NCBI GenBank assembly: GCA_938003855.1
Contig: CALKXD010000244.1
Location: 1 to 46,682 of the forward strand
Reading direction: 5' to 3'
Source: an uncultured Granulosicoccaceae bacterium
GTDB taxonomy: Bacteria > Pseudomonadota > Gammaproteobacteria > Granulosicoccales > Granulosicoccaceae
Length of the DNA: 46,682 nt
The notes under the pieces are model-generated. The model worked only from the letters and a program-made list of their open reading frames with translations. It was not told the DNA's origin and made no database searches. Shown piece by piece: positions 487 to 45,996 of the stretch. Both the position numbers and the translations under genes were made by a program. Position 1 is the first letter of the stretch. Each line of letters opens with the position of its first letter.

Positions 487-1746
487 TCAGGCAGCGGGTA
501 GTCGCTGGTGAAATCGGCGACTGACTGCGTCGACATTGCTGAAGCCGGCTCGCCCTAGTATTAAATCACGTCCTAGCGTCAGTGCATGTGACTCGCATTG
601 CGCACGTAGATCAGGGTCGGAGATATCTTCAAATTCGGCGTTATGTGCCAGCCCCAGTATGCGTCGGTGCATTTCCACACCCGCAAAGCCCAGCGCATCC
701 CGCCAGATGGTTTTAAGGCGATGGTTGAGTGCTAATTCTGAAGCACTTGCACGATTGCCTACCACTGTTTCCGGGTAGAGTATTCCTAATCGCTCGGTGT
801 CCCACAGGCGGCTGAACTCTTGTATGAATACCGTCCAGGTATCGTTTGCGACATCCAGAATCCAGTTTCGATGTTCGTCTCGTTCTCCGGGTCGGTTTGC
901 GTGGCCGATCTGTGAACAGGCGGCCATCCATAGATTGCTCAGGTACATGCCGATATCAAAGCCCATTGGACCATACAGCGCAAACTCAGGATCGATAACG
1001 CGGGCATTGTCTTCGTGCACCATCACTGACCCTGTGTGCAGGTCTCCGTGTAACATGGTTTCCGCGCGGGTGCAAAAATCCATTTTTAGATGTTGAACCT
1101 GGAGTTTCAGTGTTTCATCGGCGCGTAAGCTGGCGACCAGGCTATCGAGTTGCGGTGTGGTATGGCGATTCTGGTCAGCGTCGAAATAAGGCTCGGTAAA
1201 TACCAGGCTCTCGGTGATATCACATAGCTCGACGTTGCCGGCAAACAATTGCAGATCTGCTTTGCGCTCTTTTGCAGGCAGGCAAAGGTCCGACCCACGG
1301 AACAGGGTTCTCGCCATAAACCGGCCAATGTGCAAGGCGAGGTCTTGATGTCGGGCGCCGTTTATCAGGCTTTGTCGCAAAATGACATGTGGGCTGAAAA
1401 ACTCCATTGCAATCAGCGCCTGAGGTTCATCAAAGTGAATCACCTCGGGTACGCGACCGGGGTCTCGCTGTTGCTGGCGGCAAAGCGCATGGTATTCGAA
1501 ATAGCTTCGCTTAAGTGGTAGCGGCCAGCTTTCACCGACCAGGCGCACATACGGCAGTGCCTGTTTAACGATCAGTGTTTTTGTTGCGCCTTCGACAATG
1601 AACACCAGATTCAGATTGCCGTCGCCTACTTCGCGGCAGTGCCATTGGTGGGCTTCACCACCGAGTTGTCTGGCGATATCCGGTATCTCTGCCAGTCTGT
1701 CGGGCAGTGTTTCGGGGGTTAGCGGTTGATATTCGGTGGTGACCAT
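487..1746 (-). CDS. mtnK: S-methyl-5-thioribose kinase
   Basis: Phosphorylates 5-methylthioribose to 5-methylthioribose 1-phosphate, the entry step of the methionine salvage pathway, in the cytoplasm. The 419-residue protein has the aminoglycoside-phosphotransferase/choline-kinase fold. A nucleotide-binding DGNLN stands at residues 42-46, a likely ATP-contact lysine at K61, the MtnK-type catalytic loop HGDLHTGS at 233-240 (catalytic D235), and the metal-binding DPEF at 252-255 followed by YGPMGFDIG. Length fits the family (about 400). The usual partner mtnA is not in this window, so the gene is an orphan here unless its partner lies beyond the left repeat. Downstream of its stop is the contig-end repeat. 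Confidence 0.93.
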   Translation of the reverse strand: MVTTEYQPLTPETLPDRLAEIPDIARQLGGEAHQWHCREVGDGNLNLVFIVEGATKTLIVKQALPYVRLVGESWPLPLKRSYFEYHALCRQQQRDPGRVPEVIHFDEPQALIAMEFFSPHVILRQSLINGARHQDLALHIGRFMARTLFRGSDLCLPAKERKADLQLFAGNVELCDITESLVFTEPYFDADQNRHTTPQLDSLVASLRADETLKLQVQHLKMDFCTRAETMLHGDLHTGSVMVHEDNARVIDPEFALYGPMGFDIGMYLSNLWMAACSQIGHANRPGERDEHRNWILDVANDTWTVFIQEFSRLWDTERLGILYPETVVGNRASASELALNHRLKTIWRDALGFAGVEMHRRILGLAHNAEFEDISDPDLRAQCESHALTLGRDLILGRAGFSNVDAVSRRFHQRLPAA

Positions 1747-1928: not shown

Positions 1929-3233
1929 TTATGATCCCAGTTCTGGCAGAAATGTCACCACTTCGGGTATAGCGATAACCAGAATGATCATCACCAGCAG
2001 CGCCAGGCAAAAAGGCAATACCCCCAAAAAAACCTGTGCCAGCGGTACATCTTTGGAGAGGCCTTTTATCACAAAAACGTTAATACCCATGGGTGGCGTG
2101 ATTAGTGCCAGTTCGACCACCAGCACCACCAGTACGCCAAACCACACCGGGTCGAATCCCATGTTTGTCACAATAGGGAAAAAAATCGGCACTGACAGAA
2201 TAATCATTGCCATGGTGTCGAGAAAAGCGCCAAGTAAAATATAGATGCCAACAATCAGCGCGATGGTTAACAGGGGAGAGAGCGCCTGTTCGACCACCCA
2301 GTTGCCCATCAGTGCCGGTGTGCCGCTGAGGGATAGAAATCCCGAAAAAAGAATCGCACCGATAAGGATCAGGAAAATCATTGATGTTGTTTGCGCGGTA
2401 TCTGTCAGGCTTGCACCGATTTGCCTGAAGCTAAGGCGGCGCATCAGTGCGCCAATCAGCAGTGCACCCACAGCGCCAAAGCCAGCGGCCTCTGTCGGGG
2501 TGAAGACGCCGCTATAGATGCCACCAATAACCAGTATAAACAGCAATATCGTTGGCCAGACTTTGCTGAACGCAGAGCCAGCCGGTTCTGCGGCGGGAGC
2601 GTCGGTGATCAGCGGGGCGGATTTTGGGTCCAGCCGTGTCATGATAACCACAGTGATCATAAAAAACAGTGTTAGAAGAATGCCCGGTATGATGCCAGCC
2701 AGAAATAACTCACTGATGCTGGTCTCGGTGAGGATGCCGTAGATCAGCATGATCACACTGGGGGGGATTAATATACCAATGGTGCCGCCAGCGGCAATAC
2801 TGCCTGTTGCCAACCTTCCGCTATAGCCAAAGCGCCGCATCTCCGGTAATGCAACACGGCCCATTGTGGCCGCCGTCGCGAGTGATGACCCACACACCGC
2901 GCCAAAGGCGGCACAGGCTGCGATACTGGCATGTGCGAGGCCGCCGCGTCGGTGGTGCAGCCAGGTATTAAATGCCGCAAACAGATCTGATGAAATACCG
3001 GATTTTGATGCAAAGGTTCCCATCAGAACAAACAGCGGGATAACGCTGAGATCAAAACTTTGTGCGGACTCATAAACCGATAGGCCCGCCAGTGCCAGTG
3101 CGCCGTCTATACCGATGATCATAGTGGTGCCGAAAATGGCTACCGCCGACATGGCCAGTCCGAGGTGCGCGCCCAGTATCAGTAGTAAAAATAGTAAACC
3201 GAATACCAGCGGAACCAGGATCTCAATGGGCAT
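1929..3233 (-). CDS. TRAP transporter large permease subunit (DctM family)
   Basis: The large, ion-coupled membrane subunit of a tripartite ATP-independent periplasmic transporter. It works in the inner membrane with the small subunit and the binding protein just upstream. The 434 residues are nearly all hydrophobic, consistent with about 12 membrane segments, and show DctM features such as AAGGTIGILIPPSV near residue 145 and the C-terminal ITPPMGINVFV. Its ATG shares one base with the stop of the small subunit (TGATG), so the two are translationally coupled. Context next to sulfatase genes suggests a sulfated organic anion as substrate. That is inference; the sequence does not show specificity. 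Confidence 0.93.
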   Translation of the reverse strand: MPIEILVPLVFGLLFLLLILGAHLGLAMSAVAIFGTTMIIGIDGALALAGLSVYESAQSFDLSVIPLFVLMGTFASKSGISSDLFAAFNTWLHHRRGGLAHASIAACAAFGAVCGSSLATAATMGRVALPEMRRFGYSGRLATGSIAAGGTIGILIPPSVIMLIYGILTETSISELFLAGIIPGILLTLFFMITVVIMTRLDPKSAPLITDAPAAEPAGSAFSKVWPTILLFILVIGGIYSGVFTPTEAAGFGAVGALLIGALMRRLSFRQIGASLTDTAQTTSMIFLILIGAILFSGFLSLSGTPALMGNWVVEQALSPLLTIALIVGIYILLGAFLDTMAMIILSVPIFFPIVTNMGFDPVWFGVLVVLVVELALITPPMGINVFVIKGLSKDVPLAQVFLGVLPFCLALLVMIILVIAIPEVVTFLPELGS

Positions 3234-3754
3234 CAGGAGGGGCTGCCGTTGCTGCTGTCATCGTCATTAACATTAAAGAGAGCATTGATCAGGCGGAGAA
3301 AAAGCACCAGCAGCAGTAAAACAATACCCGCAGACATAACGATTGCGGTTGGCCAGTAGGGTATTTCAAGTATCTGGGTGTACTCCTGCTCCTGCAGTAT
3401 TTCAACTGTTTTAATAATCAGTTGCCGGGCGAGCAGTGCGGTTATGGAAACAGCCAGAATCAGATTTACAATCACCGACAGCCGTTTCACGGGTTGTGGA
3501 AACAGTGACTGAAATGTTTCGACCGCAATATGCCTGCGGTGTATTTCGGTGAGTGCCAGAGCACTGAAGACCAGCACCCCCATCAGCAGTTCAACCACCT
3601 CGACTGTGCCAACCAGGGCGCGACCGAAGAATGTTCTGCCAATGACATCAGTGAAAGTGGTGGCCATAATGACCACCAGTGTCAGTGAGGACAGCCAGCC
3701 GAGCAGTTTGGCGGCACGTGTTGTGACAATAGAAATCAGCCGGTGTCCGCTCAT
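3233..3754 (-). CDS. TRAP transporter small permease subunit (DctQ family)
   Basis: Small membrane subunit of the TRAP system, 173 residues with four hydrophobic segments (about 13-33, 48-67, 90-112, 133-155), the standard DctQ plan. The signature-like LMGVLVFSALALTEIHRRHIAVE falls around 55-80. It overlaps dctM by one base and lies 182 bases downstream of dctP in the same direction. The last ~15 residues are polar and acidic, cytoplasmic by the usual topology. Confidence 0.9.
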   Translation of the reverse strand: MSGHRLISIVTTRAAKLLGWLSSLTLVVIMATTFTDVIGRTFFGRALVGTVEVVELLMGVLVFSALALTEIHRRHIAVETFQSLFPQPVKRLSVIVNLILAVSITALLARQLIIKTVEILQEQEYTQILEIPYWPTAIVMSAGIVLLLLVLFLRLINALFNVNDDDSSNGSPS

Positions 3755-3800
3755 CTAGAAAACGCTCAGACGCAGGTGGCTGATGGAGTCTCGCAGGATT

Positions 3801-3818
3801 GATAGATCGCAGTCTATC
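3801..3818. other. Short perfect hairpin between dctP and dctQ
   Basis: The arms gataga and tctatc are perfectly complementary around the 6-base loop tcgcag. It lies within the 182-base gap that separates the binding-protein gene from the permease genes. Such gaps often hold a structure that stabilises or attenuates the transcript, so that binding protein is made in excess. No T-run follows on the minus strand, so a true terminator is not claimed. Confidence 0.25.
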
Positions 3819-3936
3819 CGGAGTCGCCAGGGTGTTGTGGTCAGCGACCTGTAGGCGGTGACAGTTGTTGTTCCTGTGGAGACTCGTGCCATGATTGCCG
3901 GTGAGCGGTTACTGCCGGAAGCCGTATGCGCTAACG

Positions 3937-4956
3937 CTACTTAAGCCCGGATACCGTCGCGTGATAGTCATCCAGCAGCGCCTGTCCGTCTAGGCCTGCT
4001 TCGTTTGCCTTTGCGATCCATTCGTCGGTAATGGGCTGGATTAATGCTTTGAGTTTCGCAACGTCTTCATCGGACATGGTGGTGATAACGTTACCCGCAG
4101 CGGTAGCGGCATCCAGACCCGATTGCTCAACGCTGTCCCACTTCTGCGATATAAATCGCGAACCCCATTCCCCTGATACTTTCGTGACCGCTTGCTTCTG
4201 GCTATCGGTCAGTTTTTTCCAGGTTTTCGGGCTCATGGTCATATAGAAAATACCGGCGTATGTGCCGCCAGGTACCACCATGTGGTGGGAGGAAACATCC
4301 GCGAGGCGGAATCCTTTCACGGATTCCCAGGGAAACTGGGAGACATCAATGGTGCCCTTTGACATTGCTTCGTTGGTCTGTCCGGGAGGCATACTGACCG
4401 GTACCGCTCCTATCATTTCCGCGATCTTGACGCCATTGCCGCCAACGCGAATTTTCTTGTCTTTGAAGTCGGCCAGTGATGTGAGTGGTTTGCTGCTGTG
4501 ATACAAGTGTGGAGCGTGTGCAAACAACGCCAGTAGTTTGGTGTCGCTGGTGTCCTCTGCCATAAAGCCGTGCTTTTCGTACCATTGCCAGGCGGCGACG
4601 CCTGCTTTTTCCGCAGTGGGTGCTGCAAACGGTGTTTCGACCGCCATAAGCTTCCAGAAGCGTTTCGGGTGATAGGCCGCCACAGAGTAGGCAATATCGA
4701 CGACACCGTTTTTAGCCAGGTCGTACTGGCCGTTGGGTTTGGCCAGAGGCGCGGTCATGATCTCGACCTCCAGCTCGCCGTTGGAGGCGGATTCCAGTTC
4801 ATCTGCCCAGGCGCGTAGTGTGGAAGTCATGTGGTGGACTGGCGGTAGCCAGTTTGCGACGCGTAGCTTAGTGGTTGCAGCAAGTGCCTGTGCAGGCAGT
4901 ACGGCACCCAGAACCAACACAGATAGTGCAGTGGAAAGAACGATACGTCTTTTCAT
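3937..4956 (-). CDS. TRAP transporter periplasmic solute-binding protein (DctP family)
   Basis: Periplasmic receptor that delivers ligand to the DctQM permease. Residues 1-26 form a signal peptide (MKRR, a hydrophobic stretch, then AQALA). The 339-residue length and the motifs KIRVGG (about 165) and MPPGQTNEAMSKGTIDVS (about 188-205) fit the DctP fold. The conserved arginine at R167 normally binds the ligand carboxylate, so a carboxylated (possibly also sulfated) organic acid is plausible. The gene is first in the transporter operon and is transcribed divergently from tetR across the inverted repeat at 5067-5090. Confidence 0.92.
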   Translation of the reverse strand: MKRRIVLSTALSVLVLGAVLPAQALAATTKLRVANWLPPVHHMTSTLRAWADELESASNGELEVEIMTAPLAKPNGQYDLAKNGVVDIAYSVAAYHPKRFWKLMAVETPFAAPTAEKAGVAAWQWYEKHGFMAEDTSDTKLLALFAHAPHLYHSSKPLTSLADFKDKKIRVGGNGVKIAEMIGAVPVSMPPGQTNEAMSKGTIDVSQFPWESVKGFRLADVSSHHMVVPGGTYAGIFYMTMSPKTWKKLTDSQKQAVTKVSGEWGSRFISQKWDSVEQSGLDAATAAGNVITTMSDEDVAKLKALIQPITDEWIAKANEAGLDGQALLDDYHATVSGLK

Positions 4957-5066
4957 TTTTTTGCCTCCGTTGTGCCGACTGCGGGATCGGCAGGGTTGCT
5001 GATGTGTAGCGATCGATACTTCACGACATAGAACCAGAGTACGGTTTGCGTTGTATTTGTGTCAAT

Positions 5067-5090
5067 AAAAAAGAATCTGTATTCTTTTTT
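5067..5090. promoter_or_regulatory. Perfect 10-bp inverted repeat, candidate TetR operator
   Basis: The arms aaaaaagaat and attctttttt are exact reverse complements separated by ctgt, 24 bases in all. The site lies between the divergent starts of dctP (4956) and tetR (5141), upstream of a TATGCT-like -10 element near 5105. TetR-family proteins usually bind such a dyad next to their own gene, so one site could control both operons. Confidence 0.55.
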
Positions 5091-5140
5091 AAGTGGAAAC
5101 CTATATGCTATGTCTACGTTTTTGTGGTGAGTTCTGAGCG

Positions 5141-5833
5141 ATGTCAAAACAGTTGGGGCTGATAGCGGGGCAGACAATCGACTCTCTACGCGGAGATATT
5201 CCGGGTGTCTATGCCGCCAGGCAGAAGCGCAGTGTGCGTATCCGGGACAGTTTCATCAACGCTGGCGTAGAAGCCTTGAACAACACCCGACTGACTGACC
5301 TGACTATTGCGCAACTGTGTGACAGAAGCGGAAACTCCGTCGGGGCTTTCTATACCCGTTTTCAAGATAAGGATGCCTATTTCCGCGCCCTTCGAGGATA
5401 CGCTATTGAATCTCATGATCAGGTAGCGACAACGCGTTTTAATCTGGAAGTATTAGCAAACTATGGGGCTGCAGAGACGCTGGATGCACTGGTCGATCTG
5501 ATGGTTGATATATTTACCAGTCGTTTCCGTGGTGTGTTACGGGAATCGTTGGTATTAATACTGGAGCCGGATGATCCCTGGGCACCGATGCGCGGCTCGG
5601 CGTTGAAGATTGTATCGGTGCTGGAAGACAGTCTGGTTGACAGCTTTGCGGACTGTACCGCCAGTGAAACCAAACGCAGATGCCGCTTTTGCTTCCAGTT
5701 AATTGTTGGAGTATTGCAGAATGATCTGGTCAATGATTATCATGTTTTCACGACCCAGGACAATTCGCTTCGTCATGGCCTTAAAGAAGCAGTTTGTGCC
5801 TATATGGGCTTGCGACGTCACACGGAATCCTAG
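5141..5833 (+). CDS. TetR/AcrR family transcriptional regulator
   Basis: Likely ligand-responsive repressor of the sulfate-ester locus. The 230-residue protein has an N-terminal helix-turn-helix at about residues 30-75, with the pattern IRDSFINAGVEAL ... LTIAQLCDRSGNSVGAFYTRF ... KDAYFRAL typical of TetR. The C-terminal ~150 residues form the variable ligand-binding and dimer domain. It is first in a plus-strand operon: its TAG stop is directly followed by the ATG of the sulfatase. The dyad at 5067-5090 is the likely operator. The ligand is unknown; a sulfated substrate or its desulfated product is the obvious candidate. Confidence 0.9.
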   Translation: MSKQLGLIAGQTIDSLRGDIPGVYAARQKRSVRIRDSFINAGVEALNNTRLTDLTIAQLCDRSGNSVGAFYTRFQDKDAYFRALRGYAIESHDQVATTRFNLEVLANYGAAETLDALVDLMVDIFTSRFRGVLRESLVLILEPDDPWAPMRGSALKIVSVLEDSLVDSFADCTASETKRRCRFCFQLIVGVLQNDLVNDYHVFTTQDNSLRHGLKEAVCAYMGLRRHTES

Positions 5834-7321
5834 ATGAATAAAAAACCCAATGTGGTGTTGATCTTTACTGATAACCAGCAGGCGTCGACACTTGGCTGTT
5901 ACGGTAATTCAGAGGTGCACACACCTAACCTTGATCGACTGGCCAGTCAGGGGATGAAGTTTGATAACGCCTTTTGTCCTAATGCATTTTGCTCACCGTG
6001 CCGGGCTTCAGTACTGACTGGTACACTACCATCGCAACACGGTGTGCATTCGTGGATCGATGATAGAAACATGCCCGACTGGCCTGCCGGCTGGCATGCT
6101 CTGAACGGCTTGCAAACCCTGCCGGGCCTGCTGCAGAACGATGGGTACACCACCGCGCTGGTAGGTAAGTACCATCTGGGCGAACCAACTACCCCGGCGC
6201 AGGGGTTTGATCATTGGGTCACTCTCGAAGACGGACACGTGCGTAGTTTTTACCGCAACCGGATATTTGACAATGGTCGTGTCTACGATCAGCCGGGTCA
6301 TTCGGTCGATTTTTTTACCGGTAAAGCCAAAGAGTTTATGGCGGAGCAAGTAGCGTCCGACAACCCTTTCTTTTTATTTCTGCCGTATCCTGCGCCGTAT
6401 GGGCATTGGCCAGCGACTAAAGAAACCGACGAGAATCGTCACACCGCACGCTACGCAGATTGTCCGATGAATTCGGTTCCGCGCCAGGCCCTCAGCAAAA
6501 AAGCGGTCGAGGGTTTCCTGATGAATCAGGCCGGTTCTTCGGCTGATCTTGATTTTTCTATGTTGATGCGTGCTCCCAACGATCTCCCCACGCTACGTAA
6601 TTATTATTCGCAGATCTCAATGGTTGATGATGGCGTCGGCGAGATTATGACGTTGTTGAATGCACTGGGTATCGAAGAAAACACCTTGCTGATCTTCACC
6701 ACAGATCACGGGTTGTCTGTCGGGCAGCACGGTTTCTGGGGGCATGGTGGATCGAGCTTTCCATCCAACCTGCATCGGGCGGCGCATTCAATTCCGTTGA
6801 TTGTGCGCCAGCAAGGACTGGTAGCTGAGGCAGAGGTGTCAAACCTGATGGTGTCAAATATGGATTTATTCTCTACCATTCTGGATCACACTGGTGTTGC
6901 CACCGGTGTGTCTGCCGGAGCGCTACCGAGTCGCAACCTGATGCCGGTATTGAAGGGTGAGGCGCCGGTCGACTGGGGTGATGATGCGGTGTACTCAGAG
7001 CAGGAGGAAACACGCGTCATCAGAACCCGCAAGTGGGCCTTGTTCAAGCGCTTTGACGGTCCAACTAATCGGGGTATCAACGACGAACTGTACGACGTCG
7101 AAAACGATCCGCAGGAAACCCGCAACCTGTCGGGGCTGGAAGCGTATCAAGAGATTGAAGCAGAACTCAGCACTAAGCTGACTGATTTCTTTCGCAGGCA
7201 TGTCCGTGCTGAAGCAGACTTATGGACAGGTGGCGTCCCGATTCAAAATTCCATGCGACAGTCTTTCTGGAGAGATGCCTGGGGCGAGCAATGGGCACCG
7301 GTCTATGAGTATGACGCGTAA
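5834..7321 (+). CDS. Type I (S1-family) sulfatase, cytoplasmic
   Basis: Hydrolyses a sulfate (or related) ester using a formylglycine made from cysteine. The sulfatase signature CSPCR occupies residues 53-57, so C53 is the residue to be converted. Metal-ligand positions are visible as TDN at 12-14 and TDHG near 296. A GKYHLG motif (about 112-117) supplies the usual lysine and histidine. At 495 residues it is a normal length, and the C-terminal half carries an ELYDVENDPQETRNL segment typical of the family. There is no signal peptide, so the substrate must reach the cytoplasm. It is followed within 20 bases by its own maturation enzyme. The substrate cannot be told from sequence. Confidence 0.92.
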   Translation: MNKKPNVVLIFTDNQQASTLGCYGNSEVHTPNLDRLASQGMKFDNAFCPNAFCSPCRASVLTGTLPSQHGVHSWIDDRNMPDWPAGWHALNGLQTLPGLLQNDGYTTALVGKYHLGEPTTPAQGFDHWVTLEDGHVRSFYRNRIFDNGRVYDQPGHSVDFFTGKAKEFMAEQVASDNPFFLFLPYPAPYGHWPATKETDENRHTARYADCPMNSVPRQALSKKAVEGFLMNQAGSSADLDFSMLMRAPNDLPTLRNYYSQISMVDDGVGEIMTLLNALGIEENTLLIFTTDHGLSVGQHGFWGHGGSSFPSNLHRAAHSIPLIVRQQGLVAEAEVSNLMVSNMDLFSTILDHTGVATGVSAGALPSRNLMPVLKGEAPVDWGDDAVYSEQEETRVIRTRKWALFKRFDGPTNRGINDELYDVENDPQETRNLSGLEAYQEIEAELSTKLTDFFRRHVRAEADLWTGGVPIQNSMRQSFWRDAWGEQWAPVYEYDA

Positions 7322-7340
7322 ATCGGTGATTCGCTAACCC

Positions 7341-8318
7341 ATGGTGAGTATCATAAAGACACCTGGAACTTGCTGTCTGCCCCGGTATACGGAACATGCA
7401 CGGATCTGCCCCGATGACAGCACCCCGATGACTGCAACACAGCGCCGCCCCGATGCTGTATCCGGCACTGATATCAGAGTCGCTGGTGACTGGTTCGATA
7501 TGGGGGCCGCAGACGCGCCTCACCCTGCAGATGGCGAGGGACCGGTTCGATCTGTCCGGGTAGATCAATTCATGCTGGCGTCCACAGTCGTCAGCAATCT
7601 GGATTTTCGGCAATTTACCGATGCGACAAACTACCTGACGGATGCAGAGCGGGCGGGGTCGTCGTTTGTTTTTCACTTATTTCTTAAAAGCGTAACGGGT
7701 ACGCCTGCATTCAGTGTGGCGCCGTGGTGGCGTGAAGTGGCCGGTGCATGTTGGCAGGCGCCGGAAGGACCGGACAGTAATCTTGGTGAACGCTGGGATC
7801 ATCCCGTGGTGCACGTTACACGCAACGATGCTCTGCAATATTGCCGGTGGTCAGGTGCGCGGCTACCTACCGAGGCCGAATGGGAATTTGCAGCACGGGC
7901 AGGGTTGGCATCGCAGCCCTACCCCTGGGGAAGTGAGCTACTGCCTGATGGCCGGCATTGCTGCAATATCTGGCAGGGGGAGTTCCCCAATATCAATACC
8001 GGTAGCGACGGCTTTGCAGGCACCGCTCCGGTCAACGCCTATATCGCCAATGCCTATGGGTTTTATAATATGTCGGGCAATGTTTGGGAATGGGTCGCTG
8101 ACCGGTTTACGAACCTGCACTCGCCCCGCGCGGTTAAAAACCCGCGTGGTCCGTTGAACGGTGACCGCTTTGTAGCAAAGGGCGGGTCTTATCTTTGTCA
8201 TGAATCGTATTGCCTGCGCTACCGGACTTCTTCCCGACAGGCTTTGCCGGCCAGTGTGGCTGCCGGTAATCTAGGTTTCAGGATTGCGCGCGATTTGCCT
8301 GACACCGTCACTCTATAA
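7341..8318 (+). CDS. Formylglycine-generating enzyme (SUMF1/FGE family)
   Basis: Oxidises the sulfatase cysteine to formylglycine with oxygen. It is a true FGE rather than a generic family member: GGSYLCHESYCLRYR at about 281-295 holds both active-site cysteines (C286 and C291), as in the aerobic copper enzyme. The domain starts near residue 45 (VAGDWFDMG) and includes RLPTEAEWEFAARAG (174-188), YPWG and NMSGNVWEWVAD (243-254). The start is uncertain: ATG 7341 adds a ~30-residue tail without a ribosome site, and ATG 7428 is an alternative. No signal peptide, matching the cytoplasmic sulfatase. It lies between the two sulfatases in the operon. Confidence 0.93.
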   Translation: MVSIIKTPGTCCLPRYTEHARICPDDSTPMTATQRRPDAVSGTDIRVAGDWFDMGAADAPHPADGEGPVRSVRVDQFMLASTVVSNLDFRQFTDATNYLTDAERAGSSFVFHLFLKSVTGTPAFSVAPWWREVAGACWQAPEGPDSNLGERWDHPVVHVTRNDALQYCRWSGARLPTEAEWEFAARAGLASQPYPWGSELLPDGRHCCNIWQGEFPNINTGSDGFAGTAPVNAYIANAYGFYNMSGNVWEWVADRFTNLHSPRAVKNPRGPLNGDRFVAKGGSYLCHESYCLRYRTSSRQALPASVAAGNLGFRIARDLPDTVTL

Positions 8319-8333
8319 ATTAACCGTGACCCC

Positions 8334-10226
8334 ATGAACCTTGACGATACTTTGATTTCCGCGTTACAAAAACACACGTCTGCTGCCAATAAGGCGTGGG
8401 CTGCTGCGTTGCCATTGAATGACCGGGCCGATTTTGTTGCGGCGACCAAAGGTCACATTGCCAGTTTGCCGGTAGGCGGTGTGGCGGCACCCGGCGGCAG
8501 AGTCGCCTGGGATATAGCCGATTATGACTTTCTGGATACAGAGTGCCCGCAGACCGCCAATCCCTCGTTGTGGCGTATGGCTCAGTTGAACAAAATATCC
8601 GGTCTGTTTGAAGTAGCGCCGGATGTCTGGCAGGCACGCGCCTGCGATTACGCCAATATGTCGGTTATTAAGGGCCGCACCGGGTGGATATTGATCGATC
8701 CGTTAATGGCACGTGAGACTTCGGCGGCAGCACTGAAGATGGTTAACGATGCACTCGGTGCAAGGCCGGTGAGCGCTGTTGTCGTCACGCATACACACCC
8801 TGATCACTTTGGCGGACTGAAGGGGGTCACCGGTGATGATGCTGACAATTATCCTCCGATTTATGCGCCAGTCGGGTTCATGGCCTATGCAGCAGCCGAG
8901 GGGGTACTGGGCGGTAATCATACCTCTCGTCGTGCGACTTATCAGTTCGGTATTACACTGGGCGCCAGTGCTACCGGTGTCATTGACGGCGGCATTGGAA
9001 AAACGGTTGCCAAGGGCCGGCGTACATTTGTTGAGCCGACACACTATATAGAGCACACTGGTCAGGAAGTTCTGATCGATGGTGTCCGGTTTATATTTCA
9101 AATGGCGTCGGGGACTGAAGCGCCTGCTGAATTTACGTTTTTCCTGCCTGATCATAAAGTACTGTGCATGGCTGAGGTCTGCACCCGGACGATGCATAAT
9201 ATTCTACCGCCGCGCGGTGCACAGGCACGAGACGCCTTGCTTTGGGCAAGGACTATTGATGAAGCAATAGAGCGGTTTGCGGATGATGCAGATGTCGTGA
9301 TGAATTGCCACAACTGGCCTGTGTGGGGCAGGGAGGCGGTAGTGCTGTACCTCGAAGAGCAGCGCGATATCTATAAATATATTCACGATCAAACGCTGCG
9401 TCTTGCCAATCTGGGGCACACACCTGACGAGATTGCCGAATTGATCGTCGAGCCGGACTGGTTGTCCAGAAAATTTCACGCCAGAGGCTATTACGGCACC
9501 CTGGCGTTTAATGCCAGGGCCGTATATCAGTATTATTATGGCTTTTTTGACGGGCAACCGGTGAATCTAGATCCCCTGTCACCGGCACGGTTAGCGCAGC
9601 ATATTGTTGACGCTATTGGCGGTGTGGAAAAGGCCATTGAGCAGGCGCAGGCGGCGATTAGACAGGATCAGCTTCAATGGGCAGCTACGCTGCTGAATTA
9701 TCTGGTCTTCGCCGATGCTGATCTTCCGCAAGTACGCGCATTGCTGGTAGAGGTGTATCGTCATCAGGGGTATAGGGCGGAGTCTGGTATTATGCGTAAC
9801 ATCTATCTCACCGGTGCTAAAGAACTAGACGGGGGTGTGACAGCGCTGCCTATGGCGGGCGGGCGCAATGAAGATCTCGCCGCAACCTTGAGCCTTGCTG
9901 ACTGGTTCGATGCCTATGCGGTGCGTTTAAACCCTGAGCGTGCCAGAGATGTAAACCTCACACTGAATTTCACCGTCGATGCCAGAACAGCCTGTGTCTG
10001 GGTTGTCCGGCAGACTGAGTTTGCCCGTGTCGACTATGCCTGTGATGCGGCTGATGTGTCGGTGGTTATTTCGCTGCGGCAACTTGAGGCGCTTGCCGGA
10101 GGGAAGCTCAGCGTTACTGAGGCAGTGCAGGGCGGAGCGTTGATAACCGGTCAGCGTGAGTTACTGGACACCTGGCTCGACCTCCACGATACCTTCGATC
10201 TCTGGTTTAACATTGTGACCCCCTGA
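8334..10226 (+). CDS. SdsA-type alkylsulfatase (metallo-beta-lactamase fold)
   Basis: Type III sulfatase that cleaves alkyl sulfate esters to alcohol and sulfate with two zinc ions. The zinc motif THTHPDHFGG supplies H153, H155, D157 and H158. Further ligands are likely in MAEVCTRTMHN (about 281) and CHNWPVWG (about 326). The order is the one known for SdsA1 and BDS1: catalytic domain, a helical dimerisation domain (about 380-500), and a C-terminal SCP2-like domain (about 520-630) that binds the alkyl chain. 630 residues fit the family. Unlike secreted SdsA1 it has no signal peptide. It starts 15 bases after the FGE gene. It does not need formylglycine, so the locus carries two unrelated desulfation chemistries. 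Confidence 0.92.
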   Translation: MNLDDTLISALQKHTSAANKAWAAALPLNDRADFVAATKGHIASLPVGGVAAPGGRVAWDIADYDFLDTECPQTANPSLWRMAQLNKISGLFEVAPDVWQARACDYANMSVIKGRTGWILIDPLMARETSAAALKMVNDALGARPVSAVVVTHTHPDHFGGLKGVTGDDADNYPPIYAPVGFMAYAAAEGVLGGNHTSRRATYQFGITLGASATGVIDGGIGKTVAKGRRTFVEPTHYIEHTGQEVLIDGVRFIFQMASGTEAPAEFTFFLPDHKVLCMAEVCTRTMHNILPPRGAQARDALLWARTIDEAIERFADDADVVMNCHNWPVWGREAVVLYLEEQRDIYKYIHDQTLRLANLGHTPDEIAELIVEPDWLSRKFHARGYYGTLAFNARAVYQYYYGFFDGQPVNLDPLSPARLAQHIVDAIGGVEKAIEQAQAAIRQDQLQWAATLLNYLVFADADLPQVRALLVEVYRHQGYRAESGIMRNIYLTGAKELDGGVTALPMAGGRNEDLAATLSLADWFDAYAVRLNPERARDVNLTLNFTVDARTACVWVVRQTEFARVDYACDAADVSVVISLRQLEALAGGKLSVTEAVQGGALITGQRELLDTWLDLHDTFDLWFNIVTP

Positions 10227-10241
10227 ACTGCGGATCGAACA

Positions 10242-11297
10242 ATGACTGCATCACGAACTGATATACATCCAACACCAACGGCATGGACAGTTCGGAGCGC
10301 GCAGGCCTTGCGTCAACGGGTTAATGATAAGATGCGCGTCCGGCAACGCTGGCTTGCTCCAGTCGCACGGTTGCCGGTTAAATGGGCAACCAGCTTTGCT
10401 TATCATGTATTGAAGCGCCCGGTGTACCAGCAGCGACTGCAGCGTGTAGCAGGCAGAATGAATCAGCATGCAGATACCGCGTTTAATGGCTATACCCCGG
10501 TTGCCGGCGATGTTTTTGCGGCAGCCTACTTTAAGGCGGGGACCAACTGGCTCATGCATATGTGTTATCAAGTTATTGAGCACGGTGAAGGTGAGTTTGA
10601 TCATATACAGGATGTCATGCCATGGCCGGACGCCGCACAGCCCCGGTTCTGGATGAATCTGTTTGATTCAACAGCCTATCAGTCGCGGAGCGGTCATCGC
10701 GTGATAAAAACGCACTTGCCAGCCAACAAGGTGCCCGTTAGTGATCAGGCCAGGTATATTGCAGTGACCCGGGACCCGAAAGACTGCGCTGCATCCGGGT
10801 ACTATTTTTTCAGGACGCTGTTTTTCGGGCCGGCCGCACCACCACCGTCGCTGTGGTTGACCCATATGGCGTCAAAAGAGGCGGCGTTCGGGCGCTGGGA
10901 CGCCTTTACTGACTCGTGGTTCCGGCTACGCAATAAGCCTAACGTACTATTTCTACGCTTTGAGTCTATAAAGAAAGATCCGCTGGCGGCTGTTAGACAA
11001 ATTGCAGCATTTCTTGATGTTAAGTTGTCAGACGAGGCGCTGGACAAAGTTGTGAAGAAAACCTCTTTCAGCGCAATGAAAGCTATTAATCACCGTTTTT
11101 TTCCAGTATCCCAATCGATGTGGACCAGCAGTAGCGGTTCCATTATCCGTAAAGGTCAAAGTGGCGATGGTGTTGAGTTATTCGATGCAAAGCACTTGCG
11201 GGAATTCGATCACGATATGGCGGCGGGACTCAAACGCATAGGGTCTGAATTTCCGTATGCAAAACACTATGCATTGCGTGATGAAAAACCTCAATAA
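10242..11297 (+). CDS. PAPS-dependent sulfotransferase
   Basis: Transfers sulfate from 3'-phosphoadenosine 5'-phosphosulfate to an alcohol or amine. The 5'-phosphosulfate loop is FKAGTNW (97-103, K98). The 3'-phosphate site is RDPKDCAASGYYFF (177-190, R177 and S185). A C-terminal SIIRKGQSGD corresponds to the RKG element of the Sulfotransfer_1 family. KTHLP follows the first strand as usual. 351 residues. It starts 15 bases after the alkylsulfatase and is the last gene of the plus-strand operon. A sulfate-adding enzyme in an operon of sulfate-removing enzymes is unexpected; the acceptor is unknown. Confidence 0.9.
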   Translation: MTASRTDIHPTPTAWTVRSAQALRQRVNDKMRVRQRWLAPVARLPVKWATSFAYHVLKRPVYQQRLQRVAGRMNQHADTAFNGYTPVAGDVFAAAYFKAGTNWLMHMCYQVIEHGEGEFDHIQDVMPWPDAAQPRFWMNLFDSTAYQSRSGHRVIKTHLPANKVPVSDQARYIAVTRDPKDCAASGYYFFRTLFFGPAAPPPSLWLTHMASKEAAFGRWDAFTDSWFRLRNKPNVLFLRFESIKKDPLAAVRQIAAFLDVKLSDEALDKVVKKTSFSAMKAINHRFFPVSQSMWTSSSGSIIRKGQSGDGVELFDAKHLREFDHDMAAGLKRIGSEFPYAKHYALRDEKPQ

Positions 11298-14170: not shown

Positions 14171-14298
14171 CCCTGTATTCTTTGTTGACTTGTACATATT
14201 TCGATATCGATCGAATTTGAAACTCGCGAGGGTATGCCTCCGGCGCCCGTTTTCAACGGCAGTTAATAGATGCCGGTAACCACTGAAGGATGCTAAAA

Positions 14299-15834
14299 AT
14301 GAACGCTACTGACACCCCGGTCATTGCTGCAACGATACCTGCCAAGATTGCACTTGAAGCGGGTAAAGACTATTTCTGGTGTCGCTGTGGTCGCTCTGCG
14401 ACACAGCCGTTTTGCGATGGGTCGCATCGAGGGTCATCTATCACACCATTGAAATTTACTGCAGAAAGTACCGGGGACGCAGCGCTGTGCCAGTGTAAGG
14501 CGAGTGGCAATGCGCCATTTTGCGATGGCAGTCATGCAAGCCTGGGCAAACTTGCTGCCGGCGATGCCGCCCCTGTGACGGCCGGAGGTATTCCCTCTGC
14601 CGCACCGACGCCGGAAGAACCCACTGTATTGAGGATTCACGAACTGGCGCGAGAGGGTTTGTCAAAATCCGGCCATCATGGCGAGATGGGCTCGATGGGG
14701 GTACCTCGCAAAGATCTGCCGCATTGGGACGACATCCAGGTTCTACCGGCGCAACTGGCACAGAAACCACTGCTGGACGAGAGCGCTGTTGCTACCCGTG
14801 TCACTATCGGTCCGCGAGCTACCAGACCGCTGTCACTGGAAATACCTCTGTTTGTGTCCGATATGAGCTTCGGCGCGTTATCTGAGGAAGCGAAAACCGC
14901 ACTGGCGCGTGGTGCTGAACTTGCCGGAACCGGTATCTGCTCTGGCGAAGGCGGCATGCTGGACGAAGAGCAGGCTGAGAATTCGCGTTACTTCTATGAG
15001 CTGGCTTCTGCTCAGTTCGGCTGGAGTCCGGATTTGGTCGAGCGTGTACAAGCGTTCCATTTTAAAGGCGGTCAGGGAGCTAAAACCGGAACTGGCGGGC
15101 ATCTGCCGGGCGACAAGGTGCAAGGCAAGATCGCCCGGGTACGTGGACTGCAACCGGGTCACAGTGCCGTGTCCCCGGCAACGTTTACGGACCTGCACAC
15201 CGCAGCGGATTTTCGTCGGCTTGCAGATGAGGTACGCGAGCGATCAGGCGGTATTCCAATCGGCTTTAAGCTGTCGGCAAACCGTATAGAAGACGACATC
15301 GACTTCGCGCTGGAGGCCAGCGCCGACTATATTATTCTAGATGGCAGGGGCGGTGGCACCGGTGCGGCTCCATTGATTTTCCGGGATCATATATCGGTTC
15401 CAACCATTCCCGCGCTGGCCCGTGCCCGCAAGCACCTGGATGCAAAAACCGGTGGGGAGGTCACATTGGTGATAACCGGTGGTTTGCGTGTCGCCGAAGA
15501 CTTTGTGAAAGCGATGGCGCTCGGCGCCGATGCAGTGGCGGTATCTAACTCTGCGATGCAGGCCGTTGGATGTATCGCCGCGAGGATGTGCAATTCGAAC
15601 AACTGCCCGGTCGGGGTGGCGACACAGAAACCAGAGCTGCGGGCTCGATTGCATGTGCAAACCGGGGCGGAAAAATTGTCCCGCTACTTCACTGCCAGTG
15701 TGCAGTTAATGCAGGTACTGGCCCGGGCCTGTGGTCACGACAATTTAAGTAAACTGTGTGCAGACGACATTACTACCTGGAAGCGGGAAATGGCTGATCT
15801 CAGCGGGGTTAGCTACGCCGGTGTTGTCCGCTGA
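14299..15834 (+). CDS. Two-CDGSH iron-sulfur protein fused to an FMN glutamate-synthase domain
   Basis: A fusion oxidoreductase of unknown reaction. ATG 14299 is preferred over 14290 because GAAGGA at 14285-14290 is correctly spaced only for the former. Two complete CDGSH sites come first: C28, C30, C39, H43 and C64, C66, C75, H79, each expected to bind a 2Fe-2S cluster. From about residue 120 to 500 follows a glutamate-synthase large-subunit FMN barrel (HHGEMGSMGVPRKDLPHWDDI, KGGQGAKTGTGGHLPGDKV, LDGRGGGTGAAP). C425, C431 and C436 match its 3Fe-4S site. The amidotransferase domain is absent, so it is not a complete glutamate synthase. It heads an operon with two glutathionyl-hydroquinone reductases. 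Confidence 0.9.
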   Translation: MNATDTPVIAATIPAKIALEAGKDYFWCRCGRSATQPFCDGSHRGSSITPLKFTAESTGDAALCQCKASGNAPFCDGSHASLGKLAAGDAAPVTAGGIPSAAPTPEEPTVLRIHELAREGLSKSGHHGEMGSMGVPRKDLPHWDDIQVLPAQLAQKPLLDESAVATRVTIGPRATRPLSLEIPLFVSDMSFGALSEEAKTALARGAELAGTGICSGEGGMLDEEQAENSRYFYELASAQFGWSPDLVERVQAFHFKGGQGAKTGTGGHLPGDKVQGKIARVRGLQPGHSAVSPATFTDLHTAADFRRLADEVRERSGGIPIGFKLSANRIEDDIDFALEASADYIILDGRGGGTGAAPLIFRDHISVPTIPALARARKHLDAKTGGEVTLVITGGLRVAEDFVKAMALGADAVAVSNSAMQAVGCIAARMCNSNNCPVGVATQKPELRARLHVQTGAEKLSRYFTASVQLMQVLARACGHDNLSKLCADDITTWKREMADLSGVSYAGVVR

Positions 15835-15892
15835 CGGCAATAATCTTCAACGGTACAATATTGCAAATCATTCGATAGAAACGGGATCATAT

Positions 15893-16873
15893 ATGGGACT
15901 TCTACAGAACGGTCAATGGGTCGATCAATGGTACGACACTGAATCGACCGGTGGGCGCTTTGTCCGGAAATTGCCGCAGTTTCGTCACTGGATAACCCCT
16001 GACGGCTCGGCGGGTCCAAGTGGTGAAGGCGGATTTACTGCGCAGCCGGGCCGCTATCATTTGTATGTGTCGATGGCCTGTCCCTGGGCCCACCGGACGT
16101 TGATCTTCCGTGCGCTCAAAGGCCTTGAAGATATGATCAGTGTATCGACGGTGCATTGGTACATGGCCGATAAGGGCTGGACATTTCAATCCGGTGACGG
16201 CGTCGTGCCGGATACGGTGAATGGTGCTGAGTACATGTATCAGGTCTATACCGCAGCGATGCCTGATTACTCAGGCCGGGTTACCGTGCCGGTGTTGTGG
16301 GATAAAAAAACCAGCACCATCGTCTCCAATGAATCGCCTGAAATTATCCGCATGTTTAATTCAGCGTTTGATGCTCTGGGCGCGACACCAACCGATTACT
16401 ACCCGCAAGCGTTGCGCCCCGAAATTGATCTTTTGAATGATCGCATTTACGAGTCAGTGAACAACGGGGTTTATAAGTGCGGGTTTGCAACCTCACAGGA
16501 AGCCTATGATGAAGCAATCGTGCCGTTGTTCGAGACGCTTGACTGGCTGGATGAGCGACTGGCGACTCAACGTTATTTAACCGGTAGCACGATTACCGAA
16601 GCCGACTGGAGATTGTTTACCACACTGGTGCGATTTGATCCGGTTTATGTAGGTCATTTCAAATGTAATGTCAGGCGCATCAACGATTATAAACACCTGG
16701 CGGGCTATGTGCGCGATCTATACCAGCAACCCGGTATCAGCGATACCGTTAATATGGCGCATATTAAAAATCACTACTATGCAAGTCACGAGACAATCAA
16801 CCCATCGCGTATAGTGCCAATGGGTCCGGAAACTGATTTTATGGCTGCTCACAACCGTGCCCGTTTTAACTAG
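15893..16873 (+). CDS. Glutathionyl-hydroquinone reductase (YqjG/ECM4 type), first copy
   Basis: Xi-class glutathione transferase that reduces glutathionyl-hydroquinones, freeing hydroquinone and GSSG. The open frame begins at 15758 inside the upstream gene, but the conserved N-terminus starts at ATG 15893 (MGLLQNGQWVDQWYDT), giving 326 residues, the usual size. The catalytic cysteine is C63 in ACPWAHR, the GHR signature. PGRYHLYVS precedes it, and VNNGVYKCGFATSQEAYDEA and ITEADWRLFTTLVRFDPVY mark the C-terminal helical domain. It starts 58 bases after the CDGSH/glutamate-synthase gene and probably shares its transcript. Confidence 0.93.
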   Translation: MGLLQNGQWVDQWYDTESTGGRFVRKLPQFRHWITPDGSAGPSGEGGFTAQPGRYHLYVSMACPWAHRTLIFRALKGLEDMISVSTVHWYMADKGWTFQSGDGVVPDTVNGAEYMYQVYTAAMPDYSGRVTVPVLWDKKTSTIVSNESPEIIRMFNSAFDALGATPTDYYPQALRPEIDLLNDRIYESVNNGVYKCGFATSQEAYDEAIVPLFETLDWLDERLATQRYLTGSTITEADWRLFTTLVRFDPVYVGHFKCNVRRINDYKHLAGYVRDLYQQPGISDTVNMAHIKNHYYASHETINPSRIVPMGPETDFMAAHNRARFN

Positions 16874-17001
16874 CGTGCCGCACTGTCAGGTAACGGCATT
16901 TATTTATAGATTGCCTGACAGTTATCGTGCGGTTAACCGGGTTTTGCCGGATTTTTCGTACATCGGGTACTGCCCGTTACAAGAGGTGTGGGAGACAAGC
17001 A

Positions 17002-18057
17002 ATGTCCGCTAAACGGACAGATAACTCGATAGAAGAATCGCAACAACACGCACAGACGCGCCGATCGCAAGGCGAGTTTGTACGTGGTATCAGCGGCTTT
17101 CGCTACGCGCTGGGCGACGCTGATTTTCCAGCGGAACCCGGCCGCTATCATTTATTTGTGGCATTCAATTGCCCCTGGTGCCATCGGGTAACGCTTGCGC
17201 GTAATGTGCTTGGACTACAGGACAGTATTACCCTTGATGTCGCTTTCCCGGGGCGCACAGACGATCAAGACCCGGTGGCTGCTAATCTATGGGAGTTTAA
17301 CCCGGAGCGCGTCGCATCACTGACGGGCGCGCCGCTGGCCGGTTGCACTGCGGATACCGCGACCGGTAAAGACTATCGACTGGTCATGCAGATTTATGCC
17401 GCCGAAGGGGCGAGTGAGACCTCTGTGCCGATACTCTATGACAAAAAAACCAGCCGAATAGTAAACAACGAGAGTGCTGAAATTATTCGCATGCTGAATG
17501 AGCAGGCCACAGCGCTGGGCAGTTCCATAGCTGAGACTGATCGCTGGAATCACTATCCGTCGACTCAGCCGGTACGAGAGCAGATTGACGCACTTAACGC
17601 CGGTATTTATACAGACATTAACAACGGTGCTTATAAAGCGGGATTTTCAAGTGATCAGGCCGTTTATGCGGCAGCGTTTGAACGTTATTTTGCGGCACTG
17701 GCCCGGCTTGAATCGACATTGAAATCTGATCAGCGTCTATTTCTTACCGGCAATAACTTCACCGAAGCGGATTTGCGTCTTTTTCCGACGCTGTATCGGC
17801 ACGATCCTGTCTATTATCTGCGAATGAAACTGAATGGCGCCAGGGTTCTGGATTTTCCTTATCTATGGCGTTGGCTCTGCCGGGTGTATGCACTGCCGGG
17901 GGTTGCGCAAAGTAGTTCCCTCGAGCATTGCCGGCAGGGATATTTCGGTAGATCGTGGAATAACGTCGTGCCCTTAGGCCCGACTTATCCCATGTCTTAC
18001 CCGGAGGCCTATCTGCACCCTGAACTGGCGGGTGTGTCTGGCTTTGTCGATGAATAG
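17002..18057 (+). CDS. Glutathionyl-hydroquinone reductase homologue, second copy
   Basis: A diverged tandem paralogue of the preceding gene, 351 residues from ATG 17002, which has a GGAG ribosome site; the open frame itself extends to 16927. The active site reads NCPWCHR (C57 and C60) instead of ACPWAHR, so it has a thioredoxin-like CxxC pair rather than a single cysteine. INNGAYKAGFSSDQAVYAAAF and TEADLRLFPTLYRHDPVYYL align with the GHR C-terminal domain. The N-terminal WVDQWYDT element of the first copy is missing. A different glutathione-dependent substrate, or a disulfide mechanism, is possible. Confidence 0.88.
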   Translation: MSAKRTDNSIEESQQHAQTRRSQGEFVRGISGFRYALGDADFPAEPGRYHLFVAFNCPWCHRVTLARNVLGLQDSITLDVAFPGRTDDQDPVAANLWEFNPERVASLTGAPLAGCTADTATGKDYRLVMQIYAAEGASETSVPILYDKKTSRIVNNESAEIIRMLNEQATALGSSIAETDRWNHYPSTQPVREQIDALNAGIYTDINNGAYKAGFSSDQAVYAAAFERYFAALARLESTLKSDQRLFLTGNNFTEADLRLFPTLYRHDPVYYLRMKLNGARVLDFPYLWRWLCRVYALPGVAQSSSLEHCRQGYFGRSWNNVVPLGPTYPMSYPEAYLHPELAGVSGFVDE

Positions 18058-44253: not shown

Positions 44254-45723
44254 TTACTCGACCAGATCGGAATACTTCTGGAAGTCTTCCGGCAGTTCCA
44301 GTACGCCGTTGGATTCGACCACTTCGACCGTTTCCGGCGCGGGCTTACTGATCAATTGATTGACAAAAAATACCGTTAGCAATACGGCGGCAATACCGGC
44401 AACCAACCGTGTTCCGCGCACCGAATTCACTGCTTTCTGCTGATCATTTGCGGCGATGGTCTGTGTCGCAACCGGTGTGGAATTCCGGTTCGCTGCTGTG
44501 CGCTGCAACTTTGCTTTGATCTTTGCCACACCGGTTAGCAGACCGTTGGTGTTGCTGTTTGCTGCAGAGCGAAGCTGTGCTTCCTGCAGGGTGGTTCGTG
44601 CCATCGGGGTTCTGCAGCCGTTGCAGGTACTGTTGACAGCCGCGCGTGTGTTAGTCAGATTGGCTGCCTGTTGTGGGCGGTTCTCTGCCCTGGGGTCGAC
44701 GAATTGCTGGTTCGCAGCCGATTGTTCGATGGACAGTGGTTCACTGGCTGCGACCGGATCGGGCAGGGCACGTTCCAGACCGGTTGCCACCACGGTGACG
44801 CGTATTTCGTCTGACATGCTCGCATCAATCGAGGTGCCGATAACAACATTGGCTTCATCGGCGGTTATCTGATTCAGTATATCCCCTACCACCTGAAAGT
44901 CACCCATAGACAGATTTGCGCCACCGGTGATGTTGGCCAGTACGCCTCGTGCACCACGCAGATTGACTCCGTCGATAAGCGGGCTTTCGCTGGCCGCAAT
45001 GGCCGCATCGCGGGCACGAAACTCGCCGACGCCCCGCCCGGAGCTCATCATCGCTTCACCCATCTCACTCATCACTGCACGGACGTCGGCGAAATCGACG
45101 TTGATCAAGCCGGGGTTGGTGACCAGTTCGGCGATACTCTGTACCGCATTGGTTAACACATCGTTGGAAGCCGCAAACGCTTCCAGCAAAGTTGTGTTTG
45201 CACCAAGGTGTGTGAGTAGATTTTCGTTCGGTACAACAATCAGTGAGTCGACATAGTTGCGCAGATCGTTAATGCCCAACTCTGCCACCTGCATTCTTTT
45301 GTTGCCTTCAAAGTTGAAGGGCTTGGTGACAACGGCGACGGTCAGCACGCCAAGCTCTCTGGCGATCTGTGCAATCACAGGGATGGCTCCGGTGCCGGTA
45401 CCGCCGCCCATTCCAGCAGTCAGAAATAACATGTCTGCGTTGCTGATTGAGTTGGCGATTACCTCTCTGTCTTCCTCAGCGGCAAGTCTGCCGACGTGAG
45501 GATTAGTACCGGCGCCTAGACCGCGGGTGATGTCGCTGCCCAGCTGGATAACGTTGTCGGGTTTGAATCTGGAGAGTGCTTGTGCATCTGTGTTGACGCA
45601 CATGAAGTCGACGCCGCAGATGTCGGCGTTGATCATTTGCTCAACTGCGTTGCAGCCACCGCCACCAATACCAATAAGCTTTATTACCGCTGATTGATAG
45701 TGATTCAGGTCAGGTTGAATCAT
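44254..45723 (-). CDS. FtsZ paralogue with a C-terminal transmembrane anchor
   Basis: Tubulin-like GTPase. The frame is open to 45954, but FtsZ homology starts at ATG 45723 with a GGGAAC ribosome site; 489 residues. The core is nearly canonical: GIGGGGCNAV (18-27), NTDAQAL (44-50), the GTP loop MGGGTGTG (105-112), and the synergy loop NVDFADVR (208-215) with D210 and D213. From about 318 the protein departs from FtsZ: a low-complexity linker with CNGC at 367-370, a basic helix-prone stretch (400-415), a transmembrane segment at 438-457, and an acidic tail to residue 489. The conserved D-x-P-x-F-L-R end that binds FtsA and ZipA is missing. No ftsA, ftsQ or murein genes adjoin it. Charge pattern suggests the tail is periplasmic. 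Confidence 0.93.
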   Translation of the reverse strand: MIQPDLNHYQSAVIKLIGIGGGGCNAVEQMINADICGVDFMCVNTDAQALSRFKPDNVIQLGSDITRGLGAGTNPHVGRLAAEEDREVIANSISNADMLFLTAGMGGGTGTGAIPVIAQIARELGVLTVAVVTKPFNFEGNKRMQVAELGINDLRNYVDSLIVVPNENLLTHLGANTTLLEAFAASNDVLTNAVQSIAELVTNPGLINVDFADVRAVMSEMGEAMMSSGRGVGEFRARDAAIAASESPLIDGVNLRGARGVLANITGGANLSMGDFQVVGDILNQITADEANVVIGTSIDASMSDEIRVTVVATGLERALPDPVAASEPLSIEQSAANQQFVDPRAENRPQQAANLTNTRAAVNSTCNGCRTPMARTTLQEAQLRSAANSNTNGLLTGVAKIKAKLQRTAANRNSTPVATQTIAANDQQKAVNSVRGTRLVAGIAAVLLTVFFVNQLISKPAPETVEVVESNGVLELPEDFQKYSDLVE

Positions 45724-45996
45724 AGAGTTCCCTGCCACTTGCAATTGGGATGTATGTTTAATATCGGCCCTGCGGGAACCGGGTCGATCTCTGTTAAATT
45801 GCTGTAACGCATGTGGTGAATGGTGCAGTAAGCGCGCCATGTGATTGTGATGTAGCATACATAACTGTGGAGCTATGACAGTCATTGACCGGTAACCTGA
45901 TCGTCGCTGTCGCAGTACACTTCGCGGGCCTGCCCGGTCGTGTTCAATCATCAAATGCTGTGCCGTTCAGTAACCGCTGTTTAACATAACTAGAAG

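Follow-up and report, generated by a model that had tools for sequence, protein, structure and literature searches.

Near the start of the window, i.e., the whole 46,682 nt stretch of DNA analyzed, which is a single contig (C244) of an uncultured Granulosicoccaceae bacterium genome (6.8 Mb, 312 contigs, 98% complete), the three genes of a TRAP importer are divergent from a co-directional run of five genes encoding a TetR-type regulator (tetR), an S1 formylglycine sulfatase (sulf), a formylglycine-generating enzyme (FGE), an SdsA-type zinc alkylsulfatase (sdsA) and a PAPS-type sulfotransferase (ST), with a predicted operator in between (Table 1). Profile searches against Pfam and NCBIfam confirmed the named genes, the regulator by way of its orthologues, all of them intact, and with them the gene set listed in the first-pass annotation, the range of which (3233-11297) leaves out the large TRAP membrane subunit. 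The tight spacing described there holds as well: the consecutive gaps within the run are 0 (tetR-sulf), 19 (sulf-FGE), 15 (FGE-sdsA) and 15 nt (sdsA-ST), and none of the terminator-like matches of the region (19, as compared to 10.6 in shuffles) falls inside these 0-19 nt gaps. The closest relatives of the genome are MAGs named uncultured Granulosicoccaceae and one Bugula-associated Chromatiales genome; Granulosicoccus is found on kelp and seagrass, and its family is known from algal hosts (PMC9238374).

Table 1. Features of the sulfatase locus, with positions given in the coordinates of the window.
Feature	Position	Strand	Evidence
TRAP large membrane subunit M (DctM)	1929..3233	-	PF06808 322 bits; TIGR00786 over cut-off
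TRAP small membrane subunit Q (DctQ)	3233..3754	-	PF04290 79 bits
TRAP solute-binding protein P (DctP), with signal peptide	3937..4956	-	PF03480 107 bits
Palindrome AAGAATCTGTATTCTT, 16 bp, predicted TetR-type operator	5071..5086	.	Divergent promoter between TRAP and tetR
TetR-family regulator (divergent member)	5141..5833	+	TetR_N 19 bits, below cut-off (28.8 and 28.3 bits in orthologues); alignment
S1 formylglycine sulfatase, no signal peptide	5834..7321	+	PF00884 166 bits; CSPCR residues 53-57
Formylglycine-generating enzyme (FGE)	7341..8318	+	PF03781 232 bits; PDB FGEs E ~1e-92
SdsA-type zinc alkylsulfatase, no signal peptide	8334..10226	+	Alkyl_sulf_dimr 156 bits, Alkyl_sulf_C, Lactamase_B
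PAPS-type cytosolic sulfotransferase (ST)	10242..11297	+	PF00685 (Sulfotransfer_1) 132 bits; SULT structures

The sulfatase carries the C/S-x-P-x-R signature of the S1 class as CSPCR, which is invariant across 31 homologues, and its fold matches S1 sulfatases with Z scores of up to 36.7; the nearest solved ones are mostly carbohydrate sulfatases (S1_25, S1_16, S1_19, S1_11), all of them so distant that the sulfatase itself does not decide the question of the substrate. As the genome encodes 15 S1 sulfatases, the use of sulfate esters is general there. Identification as a choline sulfatase (BetC, TIGR03417) was rejected, the score being 143 bits with a cut-off of 433, and a separate protein of the genome passes that cut-off (578 bits); plasmid-borne spread was rejected too, given that plasmid homologues of the sulfatase are just 26-34% identical and none was found for the sulfotransferase. 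The maturase retains the paired active-site cysteines of aerobic FGEs (CHESYC, aligned with CHRSYC of the solved enzymes), and FGEs adjoining this sulfatase form one clade as opposed to other FGEs (support 95/98), so that calling it the sulfatase's own FGE is right as far as a clade travelling with this sulfatase is meant, but the genome encodes at least two true FGEs. The SdsA-type protein matches the structures of SdsA1, a sec-alkylsulfatase and YjcS over its full length, and combines the HxHxDH metallo-beta-lactamase core (THTHPDHFGG) with the dimerisation and C-terminal domains, as type III (SdsA) alkylsulfatases do. The motifs YFKAGTN, KTHLP (KSHLP in G011), RDPKDCAASGYY and RKGxSGDG are found in the four sulfotransferase orthologues, and the predicted protein, in which the P-loop lysine, the catalytic histidine and the 3'-phosphate loop are kept, fits a PAPS-dependent cytosolic sulfotransferase.

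Unlike the binding protein P, which has a clear signal peptide, none was found in the sulfatase, FGE, SdsA-type protein or sulfotransferase, and start correction is unable to add one because in-frame stops lie 3, 6, 18 and 18 nt, respectively, upstream of their starts; the claim of enzymes without signal peptides has thus withstood the very test proposed for it, and a cytosolic location of all four is borne out. Gene copies of the relatives are free of internal stops, and dN/dS between species is 0.03-0.11, a range that covers only the pairs with computable dS, as dS is saturated in most pairs.

Several other features of the surroundings might be recorded here. An S-methyl-5-thioribose kinase gene (window 487-1746, TIGR01767 499 bits) lies 182 nt after TRAP M on the same strand, and it was not found at the locus in any relative examined. 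Elsewhere in the window, a single frame at 14290-15834 combines, as judged by eye, two CDGSH-type motifs with an FMN glutamate-synthase-like domain after them, adjacent glutathione-transferase-like genes occupy 15758-16873 and 16927-18057 (the second is confirmed by Pfam, the first has no NCBIfam match), and an FtsZ-like protein whose C terminus carries a long extension was seen by eye at 44254-45954, as was a similar one (L144 3405-5201) on the sdsA contig of a relative, G001.

The regulator scores 19.1 bits against TetR_N, i.e., below the Pfam cut-off of 24, and its orthologues at two loci outside the family (L050 and L054) exceed this cut-off with 28.8 and 28.3 bits. The palindrome is present in a single copy in the 6.8 Mb genome (12-base exact search) and at the equivalent position in four relatives (G001, G003, G007 and G010); by number, one palindrome per genome is close to chance, and the weight comes from the common position in five genomes. 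Its core, GAATnnnnATTC, recurs in the tetR promoters of a further relative (G004), of two Rhizobiaceae loci (L048 and L049) and of one from the Rhodobacteraceae (L054), as well as, with one mismatch, in L050, while in G040 (L035 5500-5860) tetR is absent between TRAP and the sulfatase and the right arm of the palindrome is degraded. The search for a wider regulon with the exact palindrome gave one genomic site, hence no second target at exact-match stringency. Judged from these sequence comparisons, the palindrome would be a putative operator serving autoregulation as well as control of the importer and the enzymes, and this predicted element, shared and conserved, supports the view that the genes form one regulated unit.

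Within the relatives sample, a sulfatase orthologue is found in 14 of the 143 genomes (the window's genome counted), and the arrangements around it vary. TRAP M orthologues 85-88% identical to that of the window occupy the equivalent place in G003, G007 and G040. In both G007 and G003, TRAP is divergent from a tetR-led run, which reads tetR-sulf-FGE-ST-GMC in the former (sdsA missing at the locus) and tetR-sulf-sdsA-ST-GMC in the latter (FGE missing), GMC denoting a GMC alcohol oxidoreductase; G011 shows sulf-FGE-sdsA-ST-GMC at a contig edge; one contig of G001 holds TRAP divergent from tetR-sulf and the FGE start, and another the rest of the FGE (residues 85-320) with sdsA, ST being missing; and in G004, tetR is divergent from sulf-TRAP P-Q-M-GMC, with sulf to GMC in one direction (an order joined from two contigs, which share ~54 identical bases where they overlap within the P gene). 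The GMC gene, present at the locus in G003, G004, G007 and G011 and, in L055/L056, placed in divergent orientation to the sulfatase run, recurs often enough to be a regular member that is missing from the window's locus. The window's genome does have a 69%-identical GMC copy on contig C223 beside an MFS transporter, which is not clearly the moved gene of the window, considering this neighbor and the absence of the exact palindrome. Choline dehydrogenase is a family that the GMC enzyme resembles, scoring 498 bits and thereby staying under the cut-off of 605.

The sulfotransferase has an orthologue in just 4 of the 143 relatives (again with the window's genome counted), always at the sulfatase locus (4/4, plus a fragment in G002), and a phylum sample of 398 genomes added no others, so it is limited to the window's genus in the genomes searched. 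In G002 (L152 1-2115), a TRAP M fragment abuts the C-terminal part of the sulfotransferase and a full-length GMC gene, which is either the remnant of a deleted locus or an assembly join. The core of the locus is made up of the regulator, the tripartite importer, the sulfatase and the maturase, and SdsA, ST and GMC are genus-level accessories, gained and lost separately. The conservation of the block across genomes, which the first-pass annotation had asked for, therefore applies to this core; the full set as a unit is not borne out, the complete TRAP-tetR-sulf-FGE-sdsA-ST run being seen in the window only. The full set is narrower than was implied, and the core wider.

Outside the family, the Rhizobiaceae loci (L048/L049) have a different TRAP importer divergent from tetR-sulf-FGE, and in L050 and L054 the run divergent from tetR comprises a phosphoesterase-like gene along with TctC, TctB, TctA and the sulfatase (TctC and TctA were named by Pfam in L054, the L050 genes by similarity to those of L054, and TctB by position), with an FGE next to the sulfatase in L050, while L054 has, behind tetR, a radical-SAM/SPASM protein of the anaerobic maturase type. 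Radical-SAM maturase-like neighbors of this type are likewise seen with Anaerolineae and Desulfobacterales homologues, and in L065 and L067 (the latter an Anaerolineales MAG). A third TRAP type is located a few genes downstream of the sulfatase in L032, where the sulfatase is accompanied by an alkanesulfonate-monooxygenase-like protein and a flavin reductase. The Rhizobiaceae and Rhodobacterales loci thus retain the regulator and the sulfatase and exchange the importer (for another TRAP or TctCBA) or the maturase (for the radical-SAM protein), and five arrangements (the window's genus, G004, L048/L049, L050/L054 and L032) couple an importer with the sulfatase, so that gene neighborhoods in several lineages bear out the proposed tie between the two. 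Two further assemblies stand apart: in a Sulfitobacter MAG (L053 12413-19401), the orthologous sulfatase-FGE pair lies close to a second S1 sulfatase, an alkylsulfatase-like protein, a TAXI-type TRAP and an IclR regulator, so that the two sulfatase chemistries and a TRAP are brought together separately there, and an Anaerolineales MAG (L067 6476-11021) has three tandem sulfatase paralogues beside its radical-SAM maturase-like gene.

As to what is imported, the best fold matches of P (Z 25-29.5, among the matches listed) include structures of TarP bound to coumarate, cinnamate, ferulate, caffeate and 4-hydroxyphenylacetate, together with marine solute-binding proteins titled aromatic-acid-specific, and four further entries not classed by ligand (4p56, 4n6d, 4nap and 5im2); the next structural group begins at Z 24.0. 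Sequence and Foldseek comparisons agree with this grouping (the nearest solved structures being 4p56, TarP and 5iga/5i7i), and P, modeled with moderate confidence (pLDDT 73.9, loops <50), is accordingly a predicted member of the aromatic-acid TRAP binding-protein (TarP) group by both fold and sequence. L048 and L032 have binding proteins from other TRAP subgroups, so the aromatic assignment may hold for the window's genus only.

Taken together, the locus is a real, conserved and probably co-regulated module, and our main reading, to which a probability of roughly 60% might be assigned, is that this TetR-controlled divergent unit imports a small sulfated organic acid whole, desulfates it in the cytosol and then oxidizes the freed hydroxyl. 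The regulator would bind the palindrome and repress both directions until the substrate or a product is present; the importer, the class of which is clear, would take this sulfate ester through the inner membrane; the adjoining FGE, by its family and active-site residues, would turn the CSPCR cysteine of the sulfatase into formylglycine in the cytosol; the sulfatase would then free sulfate via S-O cleavage, with the SdsA-type enzyme adding C-O cleavage for an alkyl ester, whether that of the compound itself or that of a related one; and the freed alcohol or phenol would be oxidized, in relatives by the GMC flavoprotein of the run, a step for which the window's genome may use the 69%-identical copy found elsewhere. 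Both sulfur and carbon are likely gained. The sulfotransferase is poorly suited to a simple degradation route and may serve detoxifying re-sulfation, hydroxyl activation for elimination or a separate task; tentatively, re-sulfation of a product or an intermediate, e.g., for detoxification, would be the likeliest of these. Since P is nearest to binders of aromatic acids such as coumarate and cinnamate, an aryl-sulfate acid is favored over an osmolyte or a sugar, and aryl sulfates of phenolic acids rank first among the substrate classes, with perhaps one chance in three; zosteric acid may be mentioned as an example of such a substrate and is not a finding. Nothing in the analysis shows a substrate bearing two kinds of sulfate ester, as had been suggested at first.

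Among the other explanations, the one that survives best, while still unlikely, is that there is no single pathway and the functional unit is TRAP-tetR-sulf-FGE, with sdsA and ST being hitch-hikers inserted downstream: the two genes are indeed patchy (cf. the 4 of 143 relatives, window's genome included, with ST), but ST keeps to the locus wherever it occurs (the G002 fragment included), both genes are under purifying selection where this is computable, and the 15 nt gaps of the window go along with an sdsA-ST order retained in G000, G003 and G011. Somewhat less probable still is sulfur scavenging, in which the importer, the S1 sulfatase and SdsA would be broad-specificity tools of sulfate supply with no carbon route. 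The two chemistries lie side by side in the window, and the L032 sulfatase with its alkanesulfonate-monooxygenase-like protein, flavin reductase and TRAP, as well as L053 with its SdsA-like protein, second S1 sulfatase and TAXI-type TRAP, would suit such a role; sulfate, however, is plentiful in seawater and therefore seldom scarce for a marine bacterium, the predicted operator is single-copy in the genome, and the conserved alcohol oxidoreductase suggests that the carbon part is used. Catabolism of a sulfated sugar, in which the sulfatase would have an imported sulfated sugar acid, monosaccharide or disaccharide as its substrate, would agree with the carbohydrate sulfatases being the closest solved ones, with the algal hosts of the family (PMC9238374) and with the different TRAP group of the L048 binding protein, but it seems improbable given that the scanned neighbors include neither a glycoside hydrolase nor a sugar kinase or isomerase and that P is nearest to aromatic-acid binders, not to sugar-acid ones. 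Import and conversion of choline-O-sulfate or another sulfated osmolyte, with GMC acting as the choline dehydrogenase of the Bet pathway, is very improbable, and the osmolyte substrates put forward in the first-pass annotation with it, because the weak choline sulfatase match, the choline dehydrogenase resemblance of GMC and a distant sulfatase homologue adjoining a BCCT transporter (L064) are outweighed by scores far under the TIGR03417 cut-off for the sulfatase and below the choline dehydrogenase cut-offs for GMC, by another genomic protein that does qualify as a choline sulfatase, and by the grouping of P with aromatic-acid binders.

Import of a sulfated organic acid followed by cytosolic desulfation, our preferred reading, could also be stated more boldly, although this extension is speculative and doubtful as a whole: an exchangeable and widespread marine module, consisting of a TetR-type regulator with the GAATnnnnATTC operator, a secondary tripartite importer (TRAP or TctCBA), one cytosolic sulfatase orthologous throughout and the maturase that belongs to it, would import organosulfates whole, and in the window's genus it would serve sulfated phenolic acids of seagrass or seaweed, with the sulfotransferase re-sulfating an intermediate in a deliberate cycle. 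We know of no importer for such seagrass or seaweed compounds. Sulfate esters are plentiful in marine organic matter, the bacterial uptake of small intact ones is poorly known, and the locus provides a precise and testable handle on it: one importer, one predicted operator and a sulfatase with its maturase, all conserved, with parts swapped, in two classes of bacteria. If true, the reading would define TRAP- or TctCBA-linked organosulfate uptake and provide an orphan sulfatase group with substrates.

In the papers searched, no description of such a gene set was found, in agreement with the initial statement that no characterized pathway with it was known, yet some known systems are close in part. 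The ats operon of Pseudomonas takes up sulfate esters through an ABC importer (AtsRBC), has a cytosolic arylsulfatase (AtsA) and is regulated by sulfur supply; it is not known to us to include an FGE gene, or one for SdsA, a sulfotransferase or GMC. The likeness lies in a dedicated importer adjoining a cytosolic S1 sulfatase, whereas the importer is TRAP in the window and TRAP or TctCBA in the relatives, not ABC, and the window has a local TetR-type regulator. The choline-O-sulfate pathway BetC-BetA-BetB (PMC5870055) similarly pairs a cytosolic S1 sulfatase acting on a small imported ester with a subsequent GMC dehydrogenase, but the sulfatase and GMC described here are below the family cut-offs, the genome has a separate BetC, and the locus adds a maturase and a TRAP importer. 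SdsA1, YjcS and the sec-alkylsulfatase share full-length homology, the zinc motif, and the dimerisation and C-terminal domains with the SdsA-type enzyme, which differs in having no signal peptide and in sitting in a TRAP-sulfatase locus. TarPQM and other aromatic-acid TRAP transporters (for R. palustris, PMC3610893) have the binding protein closest to P in fold and sequence; P is, however, only ~21-28% identical to this group, its ligand is a predicted one, and its partner genes are sulfatases instead of those of lignin-monomer catabolism. An importer next to a cytosolic sulfatase is, in sum, an already known kind of arrangement, and the locus is a variant of it.
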